Shown: piece by piece, positions 54,237 through 64,000 of the stretch
Position numbering within the stretch: the stretch's first letter is position 1
Layout of the letters: each line of letters starts with the position of its first letter
From: Dickeya lacustris
GTDB taxonomy: Bacteria; Pseudomonadota; Gammaproteobacteria; Enterobacterales; Enterobacteriaceae
Assembly (NCBI RefSeq): GCF_029635795.1
Contig: NZ_CP114280.1
Span: forward strand, 4,303,774 to 4,367,773
Direction of reading: 5' to 3'
DNA: 64,000 bases
Position numbers and translations under genes: made by a program
Notes under the pieces: generated by a model
Database searches by the model: none
What the model was told of the DNA's origin: nothing
The model's input: only the letters and a program-made list of their open reading frames with translations

Positions 54237-54310
54237 AATTTCACCTGATTAATCCGCGCCAGATAACTGTCTGGCGTGTATAACTCATTATGCTGCTGGA
54301 AAATGAAACC

Positions 54311-55945
54311 ATGAATAACGGGTCTTTGTTATCTGCACAGAATAATTCGAATGATAATAATGTTATCAGAAGCATTGTTAGTCAGTATGCGAATAAAGGT
54401 GTTATTCAAGTGACATCAGCCGATCCGCAATTAATTGAGTTTTATGATATTCAATTAAAAATGGCGGGTATTACGACGGCTCTCTATCCGGCGTTTGGCA
54501 GTATCTGGAAAAATAGCTGGATGTATAATGATTTTACCGCGACGCTGGCACTGGGGAAAAGCCCGTCCGGGTTTCCGATACAGAGTGTCACCAGCCTAAA
54601 TACCTCAGATGGCAAGAATTTTACCGCCAACGCCATCGGCTCTTTACCGGTATCTGCAACCAATGTGACCCAGACGCTGGGGATTTTTGATAGTACCGGC
54701 AACCCGGTTGGCCGTGTTCAATATAAAAAAAATTACATTAATGCAGCGGATTGCCTGATTCAGGCCAGCGGCGTGTTTCCAGATAGCCTGATCAATTCAT
54801 CCTACCCGGTAACGGTGATTTATACCTTTTCCCAGACTATCGGCGGCGAAACAGTCTATGGCATTGAAATTATCACCACACAAAGTTATCCGAAGAAAAT
54901 CACCAATCTCTCTCCCACCGATCTCAATCATAACTCGCAAATAAAAATATGTTTAACACGCAAAGATGGTGATTGTGATTATCTGCATCAATATGATGGC
55001 AATGTCAGCCTGCCAATTAAGGGGAATATCCTCTATTTTGGTCGTATTGATGTAAATAATGGTGTGCCGATTAACGCCAACAGCTCTATTTATATCGTCA
55101 GGCAAAGTCAGGGCGGTAGCCCGATTAAACCCTCGGGCAGTTTTAATTTTTTCTCAAGCCCTGGCACACGCATAGAAGGCAATCAATTAAGTTGGGATCT
55201 CGATTGGCTGGAGTTTTCTCCACCTGATTTTAATTCAGGGGAAATGGTCTATTACGTATTTAAAGTGACGGTACAAGTCGAAGGCCAGAGCGTCGTGTGC
55301 TTTATCACCAACGCGCCGGATAACGTCTTACCCCGCCCGCCAATACTGAATACGTGGCGAATAAAACCGATGCAGATAGTGTATGGCTGCCTGGGTAAAG
55401 ACACGCGCATTTTAATGCAAGATGGCACCGAGAAAGCGTTGGGCGAGATTCACGTTGGTGAGTGGGTGTGCGGCCAGGGCGGGCAGCCACTCAGGGTCGA
55501 AAATGTAACGACCGGCCATGAAACGCAGTATCTCGATATCACGCTAGATATGCCCGGTTGTTCGTCTGTCACCATTACGACCAGCTATGGCCACCCGTTT
55601 TATACCACCAGCGGCGTGAAGCTGGCGCGTGAGCTGACGCTAACTGACCGGCTCATGGCTTACGCTGACAAAGAATGCCTGATTACTGCCATTACCGCGC
55701 AACAGCAGCCTATCGAGGTGTTTAACCTGCACCTCTCTACCGATGATGCCGCCCAGATGCCGGAGCAAGGCCACGGCACGATGTATGCCAACGGCGTGTT
55801 AGTCGGCGATAGCGTCGCCCAGCAACGCTATGAAGATGCCTATAAACAGCGGCCCGTCAATGTTCTCAGCCAGTTGCCGACGCAGTGGCAGGAAGACTAC
55901 CGCAATTATCTGGCGACGCGTCAGGCCGATACGCACGAGCAGTAA
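54311..55945 (+). CDS. Unknown protein with C-terminal Hint (intein/Hedgehog-like) domain
   Basis: 544 residues from ATG 54311, with GGAAAA seven bases upstream; ATG 54290 is an alternative. Residues 1-about 350 are beta-rich and unrecognised, without a signal peptide. A Hint domain starts at Cys360: GCLGKDTRILMQDG (block A, nucleophilic Cys), TTSYGHPFYTTSGV (block B, TxxH), then VFNLHLS and TMYANGVLVGD at the end (block F). The terminal His-Asn of splicing inteins is absent, so the domain may cleave at Cys360, releasing the N-terminal part, rather than splice (inference). It is the first gene of a six-gene rightward run. Confidence 0.75.
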   Translation: MNNGSLLSAQNNSNDNNVIRSIVSQYANKGVIQVTSADPQLIEFYDIQLKMAGITTALYPAFGSIWKNSWMYNDFTATLALGKSPSGFPIQSVTSLNTSDGKNFTANAIGSLPVSATNVTQTLGIFDSTGNPVGRVQYKKNYINAADCLIQASGVFPDSLINSSYPVTVIYTFSQTIGGETVYGIEIITTQSYPKKITNLSPTDLNHNSQIKICLTRKDGDCDYLHQYDGNVSLPIKGNILYFGRIDVNNGVPINANSSIYIVRQSQGGSPIKPSGSFNFFSSPGTRIEGNQLSWDLDWLEFSPPDFNSGEMVYYVFKVTVQVEGQSVVCFITNAPDNVLPRPPILNTWRIKPMQIVYGCLGKDTRILMQDGTEKALGEIHVGEWVCGQGGQPLRVENVTTGHETQYLDITLDMPGCSSVTITTSYGHPFYTTSGVKLARELTLTDRLMAYADKECLITAITAQQQPIEVFNLHLSTDDAAQMPEQGHGTMYANGVLVGDSVAQQRYEDAYKQRPVNVLSQLPTQWQEDYRNYLATRQADTHEQ

Positions 55946-55996
55946 CAGGGCGGCTTTACAGGATAGCCGCGTAGCACACAGGGCAGGGTGGCGAAG

Positions 55997-57748
55997 ATGT
56001 ATCAGGGATATCCCGATTTTCAACACAGTTTCAGCGATGGGCAGTATCGGCTGGTTGCCGCCTGGCAGCAGGATAATCTCTATTATCTCTATCCTGAGTC
56101 GGCCGCGATTTTGGCGCAAGATCCGCTGGCCTTCTTGCTGACCATCATTCGCAGCCAAAGCTGTGAGGCAATATACGGAACGTTGGATTTTACTACCGAG
56201 TTGCAGTTTGCCCGCGATGAGGCGCTGGCGGCGTTTAACGCCGCCCATCCGGGCGCGGCCATACACAGCCTGCCGATCAGACCTTACCAACTGGGTTTTC
56301 TCGCACCGGCGCAAATCGGGGATTCGGCATTAACCGCTCACCCTTTTGACCCCAGCTGGTATGGTGCCCAGTGCAGCCAGTTTCTTATCTCGCTTGATGC
56401 CGTTGCCACGCAACTGGTGCAAAAAACCTTACTCGATGACATCGTCGGGTTTAGTGCCAGGCTGGATGGCTTTGTTGATGGCGTCTCGCCGCAGCTCCAT
56501 TACCGCGTTGAATGTGACCCGCGCGAGTTGGTGGGCTATTTGGCCAGGCACGTCAGCGGGGCGTTGCCGCTTACCGACTCGCGGGTGGCGTTCCCCTATG
56601 CGGCGCTCATTCTCTGTCTTTGGCAGAATCTGGCGTTCTTGCCGGTGTCCATCACGCCAGCGTTAATCAATCTCACGCCTGAGCAGATGCGGCTGTTCGC
56701 CGAAGCGTTGTCAGACCGGCTGTGTAATGCGCTGGGCAGCCCCTATGCGGGCCCGGCGCATACTAATACGAGCTATGTTGCCCTGTTGCAGCCGCAAGAG
56801 CCGGGCCGGTTAATTATTGATCTTGCAACACGGGAGCTGGCGCATCGCCCGGTGTGTTTCCTGCTCGATCCGTTTGCCGCCGCCCAGCAAATCGCCAGGG
56901 TATCGCCGCAGAGCGTTATCCATGAATCGACGCCGCCGTCCTTACCCGCAAGCCAGCGCGCCATCATGGTGTTCTACAGCTTTCCGCAGGGGCTGGATGA
57001 CAACATTTTTATCGATGTCCAGATAACGCTGCCCGCAGGCAATCTTTACCCGCAACCGCAGCGTAACACACACACGTTGGTGGCAGGGAAAAGCTATCTG
57101 GTCTTTACGTTTATGAATAACAGCCTGTCGCCGACGTCTGCGTTTGAGTATCAAATTAGCGTCAATTATCCGACAGACGAAGGGAACGCGGTGATAGTCA
57201 GTGAGATAAGAACCGCGCTGACCCCGCTGGTGACGCTCAATTACGCCAGCCTGCCGTGCCGGTTTTTAACGCTGAATATTGATGCCGGTTTTGCCGAGAG
57301 CAGCCTGATTCGTGGGCAGTATCACACCGGGCAATTGACCGTTGATGTTGCGTTAAGCCAGTCTGCCCCGTATTTCAGTTACCCGATGCTGGCAGACGGT
57401 GGCGAGGTGAGCCTGACTGCCTATGCGCGCAACGGCAAGGAGAGTGTGGCGCTCGATATGCCGGTCACGCAGTCGATGACGATTGGCGCTTACAGTTTTC
57501 CGCAATTTGGCGCGCAACAGGCGACCATCACCGTGCGTTTTGCGGCAAACGTTGCCTATGAAACGGTAGCGTTTCAGGCGCAAGGCGAAACCTCGGTACG
57601 CACTCACACCTTCACGCCGCAAAACCCTGCCTACACCTATACATGGAATGTGACGTCCATCTATGCCGCCGGATACCGCTACCGCACCCGTACCGGTGAA
57701 TGGTCGGATTATGTTAGCGGCGATCAAACCCTCATCATTAAGGCATGA
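55997..57748 (+). CDS. Unknown beta-rich protein, second gene of the cluster
   Basis: 583 residues from ATG 55997 (MYQGYPDFQHSFSDGQYRL), with AGGG eight bases before; an upstream GTG at 55988 is possible. I do not recognise it. The N-terminal 330 residues are mixed with several conserved-looking tryptophan/tyrosine stretches. The C-terminal part is strand-rich and ends in a module (VAYETVAFQAQG, HTFTPQNPAYTYTWNV, YAAGYRYRTRTGEW) of the same style as modules in the later genes. No signal peptide or membrane segment. It is 51 bases after the Hint gene. Confidence 0.7.
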   Translation: MYQGYPDFQHSFSDGQYRLVAAWQQDNLYYLYPESAAILAQDPLAFLLTIIRSQSCEAIYGTLDFTTELQFARDEALAAFNAAHPGAAIHSLPIRPYQLGFLAPAQIGDSALTAHPFDPSWYGAQCSQFLISLDAVATQLVQKTLLDDIVGFSARLDGFVDGVSPQLHYRVECDPRELVGYLARHVSGALPLTDSRVAFPYAALILCLWQNLAFLPVSITPALINLTPEQMRLFAEALSDRLCNALGSPYAGPAHTNTSYVALLQPQEPGRLIIDLATRELAHRPVCFLLDPFAAAQQIARVSPQSVIHESTPPSLPASQRAIMVFYSFPQGLDDNIFIDVQITLPAGNLYPQPQRNTHTLVAGKSYLVFTFMNNSLSPTSAFEYQISVNYPTDEGNAVIVSEIRTALTPLVTLNYASLPCRFLTLNIDAGFAESSLIRGQYHTGQLTVDVALSQSAPYFSYPMLADGGEVSLTAYARNGKESVALDMPVTQSMTIGAYSFPQFGAQQATITVRFAANVAYETVAFQAQGETSVRTHTFTPQNPAYTYTWNVTSIYAAGYRYRTRTGEWSDYVSGDQTLIIKA

Positions 57749-57762
57749 AAAAGGCATGAAAT

Positions 57763-59208
57763 ATGAACACCACTTCCGCTGATTCTGATGTGTTAAACCC
57801 GGCACAAAACCTGACGGATTTTTTTGTGCTGGAGCGCGCGTTGGGCTTTCATGATCAAACCTTCCCGCCAGCCTGTTATAGCTATGGTTGCGCCTTGCCA
57901 GCTATCGTGTATGACGAGTGCGGTGAACCCACTAGCGGGTTTCGCCTCACCACCAGCCCGGCCGGGGCGAAGGTAACGCTGATTACACCTCTGGTGCCGC
58001 TTGAGAGCGCACCTATCGCGCACTATATCCACACGGCGATAACGCATTCCGATGAGGCCATCACGCTTGAGTCAATACCGACCAAGACCGCGCTGTGGCT
58101 GTGTTTTGCACCGGGCAATCAAGGGGCATCTGCACCGATTGCGTTTGAGAATGGGCAAATTGCACTGACGCACGCGCAAGGGGTCGTCTTAACCGATGCA
58201 ATCCAGGGGACGCCGGGGCGCGCTTTTCTGCTGGCGAAAACCGCTTTTACGGTCTTCGCCAGGGTAACGGTAAGCTTGCAGGCCAACTGGCATGATGTGC
58301 TGGTGCAGGCTATCCGTCAGCAAGCCCGCACACCGGAGGCAGTCAGCGCGCTGCTGTACCAGCAAATAGAGGCGCAGGTCATCGTGCCGGTGTTGCAGTG
58401 CGAGAATGCACCGTCGTGGCAGACACAGCAGAAGGCCAACGACGCGGTGATAAAACAGCTCACGCCGATGATAGTCAACACGCTAAAAAACGTGACCACC
58501 GTCGAAGACGTCCCCCAGGATCTGAGTTATCGCGTCACATATAGTGACAGCTATCCTCAAGAGTACCTGCTGGAGCAGTCATACGACATGGCCGTGCTGT
58601 TGCGTGATATACCGGCGGCAACCCTGATTTCGTTTACGCCATTGCCGTTGCCGGAGCCGACACCGGACAAACCGACAGAAAAACACACTTGCCGCTTCTC
58701 GCTCGGTTTCAATGCCGCCACGTACCGGATTTTGTCGATAGAGTTGGCCTGGCGCGATCGTAAAAAAGCGATGCAGTGGCCCAGCTTTCCGGCGCTCACG
58801 CTGGAAGCCGAGGGCGACGTGGATGACATCAACGTCACGGTGACGTTTGCCGATTACAGCAAATTCTCCGCCAGACTTGCATGGGCGGAAAATGTCACGC
58901 TGTCGCCGCAGGATATTGGCCTGTATACCGTGGTGTTTAATGCGGAAAAACTGCAATCTGAATTCAAGAGTATTTCCGGCTCGGCCACCTATTATTCAGA
59001 AAACCAAAAAATAAAACTGTCGTTTAGTTTTTCGTTTGCTAATCAGCAGTGGAAAATCGCATGGCCAATTAACATCGCCTCTCAGGAATGGAATGGCTGG
59101 GTTGAATATCGCTGGCAAGGGAAAACATCAGCATTTATATCAAAGAATTATGATTCAGGTGTGCAGAAATCAATAGTGCCTGATATTGAACTGAAATATA
59201 TAAAATAA
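57763..59208 (+). CDS. Unknown beta-rich protein, third gene of the cluster
   Basis: 481 residues, starting MNTTSADSDVLNPAQ. Not recognised. Residues 35-60 (YSYGCALPAIVYDECGEPTS) and a central RQQARTPEAVSALLYQQIEAQV helix stand out. The C-terminal half alternates strands with YRILSIELAWRDRKK, INVTVTFADYS and WNGWVEYRWQGKTS, similar in rhythm to the C-terminus of the preceding protein. No export signal. It begins 14 bases after the previous stop. Confidence 0.65.
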   Translation: MNTTSADSDVLNPAQNLTDFFVLERALGFHDQTFPPACYSYGCALPAIVYDECGEPTSGFRLTTSPAGAKVTLITPLVPLESAPIAHYIHTAITHSDEAITLESIPTKTALWLCFAPGNQGASAPIAFENGQIALTHAQGVVLTDAIQGTPGRAFLLAKTAFTVFARVTVSLQANWHDVLVQAIRQQARTPEAVSALLYQQIEAQVIVPVLQCENAPSWQTQQKANDAVIKQLTPMIVNTLKNVTTVEDVPQDLSYRVTYSDSYPQEYLLEQSYDMAVLLRDIPAATLISFTPLPLPEPTPDKPTEKHTCRFSLGFNAATYRILSIELAWRDRKKAMQWPSFPALTLEAEGDVDDINVTVTFADYSKFSARLAWAENVTLSPQDIGLYTVVFNAEKLQSEFKSISGSATYYSENQKIKLSFSFSFANQQWKIAWPINIASQEWNGWVEYRWQGKTSAFISKNYDSGVQKSIVPDIELKYIK

Positions 59209-59247
59209 CTTTCGTGAATGGTTTTTATTGATTAAGAGGAAGACACT

Positions 59248-61395
59248 ATGTTGAATACCGCCATACAACAGGCAATTAAAATCAAAACCAGCGCGTATCC
59301 GGGTATTTCCGAATATGCCTACACCTGCTACGGTGACAGTGGCGATAAAAATACGTTCTATATTGTTCCCGAAATTCCGGTTTTTTCTGCACAGGATAAA
59401 AAACCGAATTTTATGTTTTATAAATACCGTAGTGAAGATCAGCAGGGCGGCTATACCCAGTTTACAATTCAATTACCACAACCGACAGACGACATTAAAG
59501 ATCAGATAAAAGGCATTCTGTATAAAGACATTCAGCCACAATTAACCGCACGCTCCAGACTGATCGTACAATATGTGCAGGCCGATCTTGCCTATACGGC
59601 TGACCCGGAAAGCAAAGAAAAACAGGATGCCATGAATAAAGCTCTGAGCAACACGGGGCTAAGTCAAGAACAGGCGCAAAAATATGTCAGCCTGTATGAC
59701 CCTAAAGCGGGCGACGCACAATTCCTGGAAAGTTTAATGCCGGATGGCACGCAGCACATTAAATTACTCACACCGCGTTACACCTCTGCACAGGCCACAT
59801 TAATTCTTGATGACAACAAAGCGTTTTATCGGCAAATGCCAGCACCGTTGTCACCCTCAGGCCTTGGCGATAACAACACCGTATTTAGCCTGTCGTTGAC
59901 CGGTCAAGGGGCCACGTTATTCGAACAGGTATTAAAAGGCACCGATAATAACGCCAGCGTGGGGATTCGTTTTGCGCTGGGGTTAGATGCCTCGCTCAAT
60001 GCGGCAACGGTTACAGTGACATACAACAGCAAAAAAACCAAAGAGGTGACGCAAACCATCAGCAAGCATACCTGGTCGGCAGATGAAAAAAATATTACCC
60101 GAAAATATTATGAATCGGGTGCGATTAAAATTGATGTACAGACCGGATTAAGTGCCGCCGAAATGGGCATGAGCCAGCAAGATTACAATAGCTGGAAAAG
60201 TTCGCTGACGGAGTGGGGGCAAAAACAGGTCGAGCAGATATTAACCAGCCAGACCGGTCTGGATATGAGTCTCGACTTACTGAATGACGCTGGTGGATTT
60301 GATAAATTTCAGGAAAGCCTCGAGAGTACACAAGATTTTACCCGCGTATACACAGAAAACTCGATAGTGCCGTTTATGATTTTCCCGCAGGCGCAATTAC
60401 CGTCCATTCGCGCGATTGTGGGAGAGAAAAATCTCGATCAATACTTTAAAGAATACGATCTGAACGATCCATTCTATCAATATATTCAACCTGAGTTCTA
60501 CGTTTCTCAGGATTTGAAAAAATACAATATCGAAAACATTGTGGTCACGGCAAAATATGATGACAACAATGTCAGTACGCTGGTGTTTGACCAGAAAGAT
60601 GCCTCATCGAAAAAAACCAACAAATGGTACATTGATAAAAAACTGGGCCGTACCTATAGCTACAGTTATCAGGTCAATTTCTCCGGCCTGCATGCCAAGC
60701 CCTATCTTTCTGGTAAAATAGAGGTCGTAGACAGTCTGGTGCAAAGTATTAATACGGCACAATGCGGTATTGTCTATGCACAAATTGATGCTCTGCTTTA
60801 CGATCAAGGCTGGCAAAAATTCAGTCAGGTGGTGGTAAAAACCCAGTATTCCGATCCGGCGAATAAAATTGAGCTGAAGAGTGATACGCAGGTGCTTTCT
60901 CCTGCCAATCCGCCGCAACCCTTTATTTACCCTGTCGGTATGACGCCGGTGAACCCTATCTATTTCTCGGCAGATTATTACACCAAAGACGGTAGCAACT
61001 TTACGTACATTCCGGTAGGTATTGAAACCAGCCCACAATTGCCGGGCTATGGTGCGACGCGGGCGAACCAAATTCAGATATTTAATGCGCTGCCTAAAAC
61101 ACAAACCTACACCATATTGTTTATTTTGCAGTCAAAAGATGTGTTAGTGATAAGCCTGGATATGACGGTGAATTACAAGGCGTATAAATTCCAGCAAACA
61201 CAATCTATTAATCTTGAAGAGTCAGAATTGGGTAGCGGTACGATAAAGAGATCGCTCAGTTTCGGCCTGTTACCGGATGGATGTGATGATATTCCTGAAA
61301 TCAGTTACAGCGGTATCGTGGTTTATAGCGGAGATAAGGAACCGCAGGTACTTTCCGGCACCCCAACCAGTGGGTCGGTTATTATAAAATGCTGA
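59248..61395 (+). CDS. Unknown repeat-containing beta-rich protein A (fourth gene)
   Basis: 715 residues. A strong site (AAGAGGAAGAC) precedes ATG 59248. The N-terminus (YTCYGDSGDKNTFYIVPEIPV, KPNFMFYKYRSEDQQGGYTQF) aligns with the N-terminus of the gene starting at 63387, so the two are paralogues. Later it contains modules VVVTAKYDDNNVSTLVF / YSYSYQVNFSG and VVVKTQYSDPANKIELK / YFSADYYTKDG, that is, tandem copies of one beta domain. It has no signal peptide. I cannot assign a function. Confidence 0.7.
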   Translation: MLNTAIQQAIKIKTSAYPGISEYAYTCYGDSGDKNTFYIVPEIPVFSAQDKKPNFMFYKYRSEDQQGGYTQFTIQLPQPTDDIKDQIKGILYKDIQPQLTARSRLIVQYVQADLAYTADPESKEKQDAMNKALSNTGLSQEQAQKYVSLYDPKAGDAQFLESLMPDGTQHIKLLTPRYTSAQATLILDDNKAFYRQMPAPLSPSGLGDNNTVFSLSLTGQGATLFEQVLKGTDNNASVGIRFALGLDASLNAATVTVTYNSKKTKEVTQTISKHTWSADEKNITRKYYESGAIKIDVQTGLSAAEMGMSQQDYNSWKSSLTEWGQKQVEQILTSQTGLDMSLDLLNDAGGFDKFQESLESTQDFTRVYTENSIVPFMIFPQAQLPSIRAIVGEKNLDQYFKEYDLNDPFYQYIQPEFYVSQDLKKYNIENIVVTAKYDDNNVSTLVFDQKDASSKKTNKWYIDKKLGRTYSYSYQVNFSGLHAKPYLSGKIEVVDSLVQSINTAQCGIVYAQIDALLYDQGWQKFSQVVVKTQYSDPANKIELKSDTQVLSPANPPQPFIYPVGMTPVNPIYFSADYYTKDGSNFTYIPVGIETSPQLPGYGATRANQIQIFNALPKTQTYTILFILQSKDVLVISLDMTVNYKAYKFQQTQSINLEESELGSGTIKRSLSFGLLPDGCDDIPEISYSGIVVYSGDKEPQVLSGTPTSGSVIIKC

Positions 61396-61568
61396 GAGTA
61401 GACCAACGTTAATGTATCGAACACGGGCTCTTTGACGTGTATAAACAGGTCGCGGGGCAATGGATAAAAATTGCCCCTGCACCTGCATATTATTAATAAC
61501 GACATCACCAGTCAGGTGTGTTTTTCGATTGTAGCGAGTGATTCATTATCCTTGCAGAGGAGCCCATT

Positions 61569-63377
61569 ATGGATGAAGACAATAGTAAACAGGATATCTG
61601 TTTTATTAATGCATCATTGGGCAGCCATGTTTATTATTATTGTGCGGCTACGCCGAAAATAGTGACGCGTGATAATCAGCCTTGTGTGCAATATCAGGTA
61701 TTCAGGAATAATGCACAGCCCGATCAATACTACGCTATTCTTTCACTGCAAACGCAATTGCCGATAAGCCTGACTGATGCGCAATATGCCGCACGCCATG
61801 ATACGGATATTCCGGCCGATGCCACACTGCTGCCTTTGCCGGTGATGGCCAGCACCGCCACGCTCAGTATTCCTGGCATCATGAACGCGAATATTCATAA
61901 TACGTCTCTTGGCAATAGCCAGTTTTGCTACATGATGGTGAGCCTGACACAGGCGCAGGATATTGAACGGCTTGCCGCATTACTCAAAACGCCGCAAGCG
62001 GTGCCAATGGCGGTAAGCTATAAAATAGATTATTTACAACAGCTCCCCCCTTCAACATTTGAACTGAATGCGCAATGGCAGCGGGTTTATGATTATCTGA
62101 AAACGAATGTCGGTTTTAATGCCCTGATATTCTCCGTCGATATTGAACATATCTCGGAAACCTTGCTGGAGCAGCGACTTGTCACTATTCAATCCACGGA
62201 CATCGACCCGCAAAGCCATGTCAAAGAGGCCGGGCTTGAGCTGACAAAAATTCTGATGGTCAATTTTTTCACGCCGGTATTTGGCAAGGTAAATACCGGC
62301 GCCGAGCCGCGCTTTGGTTTTTATTTACAGCAAGTGTCTATCGAGGATATTGAGCAACGCACCCTGAGTGCCCGTATTGCCCAAACAAGCGTTGTCCGGC
62401 GTTCTTTTTATCCTCAGGCATTATTTGCCAGCTTGATCGGCAATAGCCACTATTCAGCGGAAGATATCATCAGTTTCCACACGCTGGAGGATGCGTTTTT
62501 CGCCTATCGCACGGTGAGCGCACAACTGCTGACCCCTCAGCTTGATGCGAATATTAAATTCGTTGTGCTGAACATGACCTACGGCACAACAACACAGTCA
62601 TTGGTCTTTTCAGCCAGTAAATATGGCCCACAGAAATTTATTGCGCCGAGTATGATTGACCCGGTGACAAAACGCATGATTTGGCCGGTGGAATATTCAT
62701 TTACGCTGAATTTTAATCACCCGATAGGGGGTGTCACTAATGTCACGTCGGCGAAAATGTCCACCGCAATGACGGAGCTTTATCTTGATGTTGAATCGTT
62801 ATATAGCCGCTATCATTTTATGATTCACGCAGCAAAAGATTTTGACTGGCAGTGGTATAGCGCTATTTTCGTTAAAATTGTCTGTTACCAGATTAATAAT
62901 GCCGATAATCATTTTGCAAAAAGTCTGTTAATCAGTCGTGATAATCCGAGTGATGAATATGAATTGATGTTGCCGGAGCCGGAAGGTTATCAATTCGAGG
63001 TGTTTAAAGAGTACAGCGTGGCGGACAATGCGGCACATATTGCTGCGAAAATACATGAGCCGACCAGCCAGGATATTACGCTGTTCTCCCGGTTATATAA
63101 ACAACGTCAGTTATTGATCGTGGCCGGATTTAACTGGGAGGAGATCGATCAAGTTATCGTGACGGCAAGTTATTTGGCTTCGCCCTCACAGACATTGAAA
63201 CAGGACTTTGTGTTTTCGCAAGAGAGCCCTGCCGATGCATTATTCAGTGCCGACCAACCGGATACCGAAATGACGTCGGTGGATTTAGATATTCTTATTG
63301 TAGATAAACAAGGTCAGGTTCATCCCAAAAACATTTCTACCGATGCTGACAGCATTGATATTGCTAACCTGTATTGA
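61569..63377 (+). CDS. Unknown repeat-containing beta-rich protein B (fifth gene)
   Basis: 602 residues, with GAGGAG before ATG 61569. It shares with protein A the late module pattern (IDQVIVTASYLASPSQTLKQDF, VDLDILIVDKQGQVH) and a helix-strand segment around residue 185 (VGFNALIFSVDIEHISETLLEQ) in a position similar to the middle of protein A. The N-terminus (ASLGSHVYYYCAATPKIVTRD) looks like a shortened version of the paralogues. Not recognised. It lies 174 bases after gene four and nine bases before the next one. Confidence 0.65.
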   Translation: MDEDNSKQDICFINASLGSHVYYYCAATPKIVTRDNQPCVQYQVFRNNAQPDQYYAILSLQTQLPISLTDAQYAARHDTDIPADATLLPLPVMASTATLSIPGIMNANIHNTSLGNSQFCYMMVSLTQAQDIERLAALLKTPQAVPMAVSYKIDYLQQLPPSTFELNAQWQRVYDYLKTNVGFNALIFSVDIEHISETLLEQRLVTIQSTDIDPQSHVKEAGLELTKILMVNFFTPVFGKVNTGAEPRFGFYLQQVSIEDIEQRTLSARIAQTSVVRRSFYPQALFASLIGNSHYSAEDIISFHTLEDAFFAYRTVSAQLLTPQLDANIKFVVLNMTYGTTTQSLVFSASKYGPQKFIAPSMIDPVTKRMIWPVEYSFTLNFNHPIGGVTNVTSAKMSTAMTELYLDVESLYSRYHFMIHAAKDFDWQWYSAIFVKIVCYQINNADNHFAKSLLISRDNPSDEYELMLPEPEGYQFEVFKEYSVADNAAHIAAKIHEPTSQDITLFSRLYKQRQLLIVAGFNWEEIDQVIVTASYLASPSQTLKQDFVFSQESPADALFSADQPDTEMTSVDLDILIVDKQGQVHPKNISTDADSIDIANLY

Positions 63378-63386
63378 GGAGACGTC

Positions 63387-64000
63387 ATGTTATTACTGAG
63401 AGAAAAGACCGCGACTATCAATAACATTACCTTTTTTGCCGATGACTCGGATGAAAATCAATTCTGGTATATGCCGGGCGATCTGCATATTGCGCAAAAA
63501 GATAAAAAACCGGTGTTCTCGCTAATTAAATACACCGGCGACGGGACAAACCAGCAAGGCGGCTATCTTAATTTCGAGGTAAATACCGCGCTGGATGAAA
63601 CCACGCTGAACAGTGCGTTTCGTACCTATCTCAATCAGATGAAAATCGCTGCCCCGCAAGCCAGAAAAGCCCCGGTTCCTTTTGATAGCGGCACGGTCGA
63701 TTTCTTTGTGCTGGATGTAAAAAACGGCAATGGGCAATTGATTAGCGCCCAGAGCCCGAGTCTGTTTGGTAATAACTCGGCGATTTTCAGCGCCAAACTG
63801 ACCCCTGAACAGGCGGTTATTCTGGAGGCGGCGTTTAATCAGGCGCAGGCACCGGCAGCGGTGGCCTATAACCTGACCTATACCGGTATTACACCGGCGC
63901 TGAAGGTGGAGGTCAAAGCCGAGTTTGACAGTATCTATAAGGAGTTTGGTGCTAAATTCGGCATCAATATTCCCATACCGGTAGAAACCCCGGCCAGTTT
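63387..64000 (+). CDS. Unknown protein C, paralogue of protein A (runs off the window)
   Basis: The frame is open from ATG 63387 (MLLLREKTATINNITFFAD), with GAGGAG upstream, to the end of the window; about 204 residues are visible. The first 70 residues (FWYMPGDLHIAQKDKKPVFSLI, KYTGDGTNQQGGYLNF) align with FYIVPEIPVFSAQDKKP and KYRSEDQQGGYTQF of the gene at 59248. The remainder is not visible. This shows that the cluster continues beyond the window. Confidence 0.75.
   Translation, partial: MLLLREKTATINNITFFADDSDENQFWYMPGDLHIAQKDKKPVFSLIKYTGDGTNQQGGYLNFEVNTALDETTLNSAFRTYLNQMKIAAPQARKAPVPFDSGTVDFFVLDVKNGNGQLISAQSPSLFGNNSAIFSAKLTPEQAVILEAAFNQAQAPAAVAYNLTYTGITPALKVEVKAEFDSIYKEFGAKFGINIPIPVETPAS

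Follow-up and report, generated by a model that had tools for sequence, protein, structure and literature searches.

An eight-gene cluster, g1 to g8, was found between uvrB and yvcK in Dickeya lacustris. Its first genes lie at the end of the stretch analysed here (the window), which comprises the final 64,000 bases of a single-contig genome of 4,367,773 bases (NZ_CP114280.1). The seventh gene is predicted to encode a prenyltransferase fused to a terpene cyclase, and the first encodes a protein with a Hint domain. It is proposed, with a probability of roughly 0.4 and by analogy with an enzyme of a peptide pathway, that g7 adds a cyclised, probably C15, terpenoid to an aromatic residue of a protein of the cluster, and that Hint cleavage matures g1.

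A first-pass annotation of the window had described six large rightward genes continuing past its edge, and these were recovered as the open reading frames (ORFs) g1-g6. The chromosome has been linearised at the window end, and the cluster resumes at contig base 1 with the remainder of g6, followed by g7 (686 amino acids, aa), g8 (473 aa), yvcK on the opposite strand and moaA. As both halves of g6 adjoin in another genome of the same genus (G517), the window edge is only the opening point of a circular chromosome. The features are as follows.

54290..55945, + strand: g1, Hint protein of 551 aa, with an N-terminal domain of about 365 aa, the Hint domain and a conserved C-terminal tail
54311, + strand: in-frame ATG, the alternative start of g1 chosen in the first-pass annotation
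55388..55810, + strand: Hint domain of g1; Cys1 is C367, the block-B histidine is H435, and the domain ends in V-G-D where splicing inteins have H-N
55811..55942, + strand: conserved tail at the C-terminus of g1, which follows the Hint domain and carries the tryptophan W533
55988..57748, + strand: g2, 586 aa, probably a remote relative within the g4 superfamily
57763..59208, + strand: g3, 481 aa, with no relative detected outside clusters of the same kind
59248..61395, + strand: g4, 715 aa, an N-terminal module (about residues 1-400) and then probably three immunoglobulin-like (Ig-like) C-terminal domains
60214..60219, + strand: Trp323-Gly324 of g4, a pair retained in the Enterobacterales and Colwellia-type relatives and in those from Azospirillum and Calothrix
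61569..63377, + strand: g5, 602 aa, a paralogue of g4 and g6
63387..64000, then G000:C1:1-1123 (L003), + strand: g6, a g4 paralogue split by the window edge
L003:1127-3187, beyond the window: g7, the predicted prenyltransferase-cyclase fusion
L003:3224-4645, beyond the window: g8, followed by yvcK

The predicted structure of g7 contains two folds, an ABBA barrel and then a terpene cyclase. It is therefore modelled as a fusion of an N-terminal ABBA-barrel prenyltransferase domain (P) with a C-terminal class II cyclase domain (C) bearing a DxDD motif. The DxDD, E65 and a K-x-Y motif (K151, Y153) are invariant in all 31 rows of fused g7 proteins and are kept where the two domains are encoded separately. 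According to PMC11443524, Glu89 of the indole prenyltransferase FgaPT2 meets the indole N-H, while Arg100 binds the donor. E65 appears to be the counterpart of Glu89 by motif and spacing rather than by superposition (31/31), and K151 with Y153 appears, again by motif and not superposition, to match the donor-binding Lys187 of FgaPT2 with its tyrosine two residues on (31/31). In the split P proteins, az6 and ca2, the glutamate is followed at a spacing of 11 by an arginine, as in Glu89-Arg100 of FgaPT2.

An enzyme of similar build is NctPC. In the review PMC13290415, it is described as an enzyme of a ribosomal peptide pathway that joins an ABBA-barrel P domain and a terpene cyclase C domain in one protein and places a C20 unit onto a peptide tryptophan. 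The order of an N-terminal barrel and a C-terminal class II cyclase with DxDD is shared by g7, the likeness being one of domain architecture. The partners differ, since those of g7 are large g4-family proteins and a Hint protein, with no precursor gene apparent. By eye, no conserved-looking precursor ORF of at least 20-25 aa was seen upstream of g1 in seven loci or in the g4-g5 gap of the Dickeya cluster, a search which did not cover the downstream gaps. Bacterial drimenol synthases (AsDMS and the HAD-TCbeta fusions) carry a HAD phosphatase as the partner of the cyclase, whereas g7 has an ABBA prenyltransferase. Besides prenyltransferase-cyclase fusions of peptide pathways, no system joining a Hint protein to a prenyltransferase or cyclase was found among the literature matches listed. 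The enzyme architecture is already known from a peptide pathway; its pairing with a Hint protein and paralogous large proteins was not found in the libraries searched or the matches listed.

With regard to the donor, only two prenyl synthases, which we take to be IspA and IspB, were found in the Dickeya genome and in four of the six others searched. No dedicated C20 synthase is evident in these five of the seven genomes, and with two synthases only, farnesyl diphosphate (FPP) is the likely donor. The Erwinia and Pantoea carriers (G1146, G1147) have a third prenyl synthase.

In the proposed mechanism, the cluster would encode large proteins without leaders, several being paralogues, and at least one of these would be modified. 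The ABBA-barrel domain of g7 would attach a prenyl chain to an aromatic residue; the chain would most likely be the C15 unit of FPP, and the residue would probably be tryptophan. The DxDD acid of the class II cyclase domain would then protonate the distal end of the chain and fold it into a polycyclic terpenoid. This division of labour, with P transferring and C cyclising, follows the analogy with NctPC as given in PMC13290415. The acceptor is proposed to be a protein encoded by the cluster, because no precursor peptide is apparent upstream of g1 and the syntenic neighbour of the enzyme is a large protein; members of the g4 family would be the best candidates. Separately, the Hint domain of g1 would form a thioester at Cys1 and release the N-terminal domain without splicing. 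The end product would be a terpenoid-tagged protein complex, and its assembly and location are likewise predictions.

The structural neighbours of g7 also suit another outcome. Those nearest to the P domain are DMATS1, PriB and IptA, all solved with L-tryptophan or other small indoles, and its identity to PriB, DMATS1 and FgaPT2 is 10-14%. Such DMATS-type enzymes (PriB, DMATS1, FgaPT2) differ from fused g7, in which the donor-site arginine position is changed and a cyclase is attached. It is somewhat unlikely, though worth serious weight, that g7 turns free tryptophan, indole or another small aromatic into a small meroterpenoid that stays free, the large proteins serving to bind, carry or export it or to give resistance to it. 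The release of a free alcohol by drimenol synthase, as reported in PMC12365925 and PMC9128629, is consistent with such a route. Against it, no recognised tailoring enzyme or transporter is present among the eight genes, and the neighbours of g7 are large proteins whose conservation alongside it reaches from Enterobacterales to a metagenome-assembled genome (MAG) of the Bacteroidota.

The large proteins form a family of their own. By profile comparison (hhalign), g4, g5 and g6 are paralogous, with values of 95.9 and 95.7 for g5 and 98.1 for g6 to g4, the last computed with the g6 proteins of relatives. A weaker link was obtained for g2, at 65.3 against a profile of g4, g5, g6, az5 and ca1; g8 reached a probability of 29% against the g4-type profile, and g1 and g3 stayed below 8%. 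The first-pass annotation had called all the proteins beta-rich, and as regards g4 the structure model agrees, being strand-rich with helical parts. The C-terminal domains of g4 are probably Ig-like, as suggested by weak matches. No clear fold match was obtained for g4, and its N-terminal part stays without assignment; the 50 viral fold matches listed had a query TM-score of at most 0.14 and were discarded. The pair W323-G324 is invariant in 33/33 rows of alignment A6 and is found also in az5 of Azospirillum and ca1 of Calothrix.

Beyond the Enterobacterales, the association of this family with the enzyme is seen in three settings. In a Saprospirales (Bacteroidota) MAG, g1-g2-g3-g4 (residues 1-320) close one contig, and g4 (from residue 324)-g5-g6-g7 open another. 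An Azospirillum plasmid has separate P and C genes (hhalign to g7 of 94.9 and 99.7) after a g4 relative, and on a Calothrix plasmid, g4-type, P and C genes are consecutive (98.7 and 99.7), along with a short second g4-type module. A g4-family protein adjoining P and C is thus common to Pseudomonadota, a cyanobacterium and a Bacteroidota MAG. A weak g8 match in the Azospirillum stretch (49 aa, E 4e-4) was taken as chance. Downstream of the Calothrix core (L055:14891-21323), a glycine-rich protein of 309 aa, a protein of more than 1,450 aa and a protein of 346 aa that looks nuclease-like by eye were observed, none with a Pfam match.

The Azospirillum lipoferum core adjoins az3, which is closely related to pore-formers of the MakA/NHE type (PF05791, E 2.2e-12; 7p3r and 6dfp, E about 5e-78). 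The neighbour of az3, az4, matches PF05791 only weakly (E 0.072), and az2 does not match it. This location, the probable Ig-like domains of g4 and the loss in g7 of part of the donor-binding basic set would all suit a toxin-like or adhesive complex, in which catalytically altered g7 domains serve as structural or carrier parts and Hint matures one subunit. Such a complex is unlikely, as the DxDD, E65 and K-x-Y motifs are invariant in all 31 rows and kept in the split domains, and a dead fold would need none of them. Moreover, unlike the MakA/NHE alpha-pore-forming toxin loci, the Dickeya cluster itself gave no pore-former match.

In g1, the self-processing domain noticed earlier was confirmed as a Hint domain, with PF05203 exactly at its cut-off and PF07591 above it. 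C367 (Cys1), H435 (block-B) and the terminal glycine and aspartate are each kept in 15/15 rows of alignment A2, and the domain ends in VGD in all 11 aligned rows, including five distant plasmid relatives. When g1 was compared with splicing inteins, Cys1 and the block-B histidine were present, while the C-terminal HN was absent and replaced by GD (15/15). As Cys1 and the histidine are kept and GD replaces the splicing residues, formation of a thioester at Cys1 and N-terminal cleavage are predicted. Bacterial intein-like (BIL) and Hedgehog-type Hint domains likewise have Cys1 and the block-B histidine, and g1 has profile matches to intein and BIL structures; it differs from them in its VGD end without HN, its own conserved tail and the lack of a signal peptide by crude hydropathy. 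The Hog domain of Hedgehog carries a lipid-directing region after Hint; g1 has a conserved tail after its Hint domain, which may or may not act in that way. It is quite doubtful that the cluster is a bacterial counterpart of Hedgehog maturation, that is, a Hint-processed system in which a dedicated prenyltransferase-cyclase builds a polycyclic sesquiterpenoid directly on large proteins, either on a conserved tryptophan (e.g. W323 of g4) or on the cleaved end of the N-terminal domain of g1.

Seven plasmid records with g1-like Hint proteins were found by tblastn, of which five were fetched and aligned. These five stretches have the g1 tail and gave no g7 match; conversely, the two plasmid stretches that carry the g4-P-C core (Azospirillum, Calothrix) gave no match to g1. 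Such a distribution bears on the idea that g1 is itself a precursor in the style of ribosomal peptides, its tryptophan-bearing tail being the peptide that g7 modifies. The tail is indeed conserved, with W533 in 9/9 cluster copies, and NctPC is reported to act on a peptide tryptophan. The idea is nevertheless highly improbable: Hint has no C-terminal cleavage residues and so would not free the tail, the split cores gave no g1 match, and the tail persists in the five stretches without a g7 match, its tryptophan in three of them.

Some neighbours of g1-like genes were also observed. On a Tistrella plasmid (L081:14815-31509), a g1-like Hint protein heads a series of large hypothetical genes and a LysM protein, with no g4 or g7 match. 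On an Azospirillum brasilense plasmid (L084:13888-19989), another adjoins a gene annotated as tryptophan 7-halogenase, with a LodA/GoxA-type oxidase nearby on the other strand. In Serratia, a gene of about 180 aa lies directly upstream of g1 (L006:4583-5125; also L009, L010, L012 and L014, with a broken piece in L016); it has no Pfam match, and by eye one part of it looks like a Nudix box.

Several points weigh against the proposed terpenoid tagging. No sequence match of g7 to any solved prenyltransferase or cyclase was obtained, so its assignment rests on predicted fold and motifs, and its activity is a prediction. The position of the donor arginine (Arg100 of FgaPT2) is occupied by alanine in 16, serine in 11 and tyrosine in 4 of the 31 fused proteins, and the only positions with a basic residue in 90% or more of these rows are K72, R134, K142 and K151. 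The partner of the DxDD acid (Y427 in AsDMS) was not identified in g7. The acceptor is a candidate only, and the invariant tryptophans may be structural. The g4 family is tied to the enzyme by synteny in few lineages; as Hint can occur apart from the g4-P-C core and the core apart from Hint, the two chemistries may have nothing to do with each other. Finally, the system is rare, with g4 in 4 of 149 genomes of the family and, in the draws from the class (1/369) and the order (1/394), in the Dickeya genome only.

If g7 does act on a protein of the cluster, this would be a bacterial route for attaching ring-shaped terpenoids to large proteins, and a new form of lipid tagging; the prenyltransferase-cyclase fusions found described act on ribosomal peptides. 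The question can be put directly to the test, given the eight-gene unit, its split form on plasmids and the sister species in which the site is empty. Should g7 make a small molecule instead, this is still a conserved terpene-type locus of some enterobacteria that the family libraries searched do not recognise.

For g2-g8, there was no match at the curated cut-off in Pfam or NCBIfam, no PHROGs match with E <0.04 and no PADLOC match; for g6, its own N-terminal part was used in Pfam and NCBIfam, and a Serratia relative in PHROGs and PADLOC. The remark in the first-pass annotation that none of its genes fitted a family it knew thus holds for g2-g6 in these four libraries. No match of the cluster proteins to a known toxin, S-layer, phage or defence family was found in the libraries searched, although absence of a match does not exclude membership; an assignment to a toxin or S-layer locus, named earlier as the outcome that would count against a new system, did not arise. 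An anti-phage system was considered and set aside, the sole PADLOC result being a weak match of a homing endonuclease to the Hint region of g1. A phage or other mobile structural locus was likewise rejected, there being no g7 relative in viral contigs and no g4 or C-domain match in phage records, besides the PHROGs result.

Spacers within the window are 9-42 bp, except for 173 bp between g4 and g5, so that the earlier description of mostly short spacers is borne out. Purine-rich stretches precede g2, g4, g5 and g6, in keeping with the ribosome sites it had claimed, and also g8. By a crude hydropathy measure, no cluster protein has a signal peptide or membrane helix, as had been supposed; the highest 19-residue mean (1.98) falls within the folded g7 domain, in an N-terminal helix, and the value for g6 was taken from a Kosakonia relative, the Dickeya copy being cut. 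The ratio of nonsynonymous to synonymous divergence (dN/dS) against the same-genus copy is 0.03-0.22 across all eight genes; the reading frames are therefore not chance, and the proteins are under purifying selection.

An earlier single-sequence scan of genome contigs had found no relatives, and these were recovered by a profile scan with g4 of the species-genome collection, which gave 14 loci. In 10 of them, all eight reading frames are open and the gene order is unchanged, so that the Hint gene and the paralogue family co-occur there. The single transcription unit of structural-looking proteins proposed earlier thus stands as a conserved unit with a Hint gene; its purely structural picture does not, as g7, beyond the edge, turns it into one with dedicated terpene chemistry. 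The secreted or cell-surface assembly suggested at the same time stays a conjecture. No DNA match of the Enterobacter g4 was found in 20,395 E. coli records. The phylum draw gave four weak matches, spread over three genomes and lying at model positions 36-90 (E 3.6e-5 to 6.4e-4), which were not accepted as members; the tally there was 4/299 including the Dickeya genome. A weak match (438-541) in a single genome from the draw made around the Saprospirales MAG was treated likewise, with a tally of 2/345 including the MAG itself.

The ORFs flanking the cluster differ between genera. Within the genus, g7 is present in two of nine genomes, in both at uvrB-yvcK, and in the other 7/7 the site is empty, with uvrB and yvcK as neighbours and 82-571 bp between the aligned ends. 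On the preferred reading, the eight-gene system has been horizontally moved. Synonymous divergence (dS) between the two carriers is 0.07-0.25 for g3-g6, 0.44 for g7, 0.82 for g8, 1.07 for g2 and 1.31 for g1, as compared with 0.56 for uvrB; this mosaic, with g1-g2 far above g3-g6, suggests that parts of the cluster have probably been exchanged. As for the remaining four loci, L008 is cut by a contig end, L017 is a fragment, and the genes are in pieces in L015 (Pectobacterium PL152) and L018 (Enterobacter EA-1). The EA-1 copy has many breaks; its genome (G028), a single contig of 5.1 Mb, is rated 49% complete, and assembly errors are thus likely.

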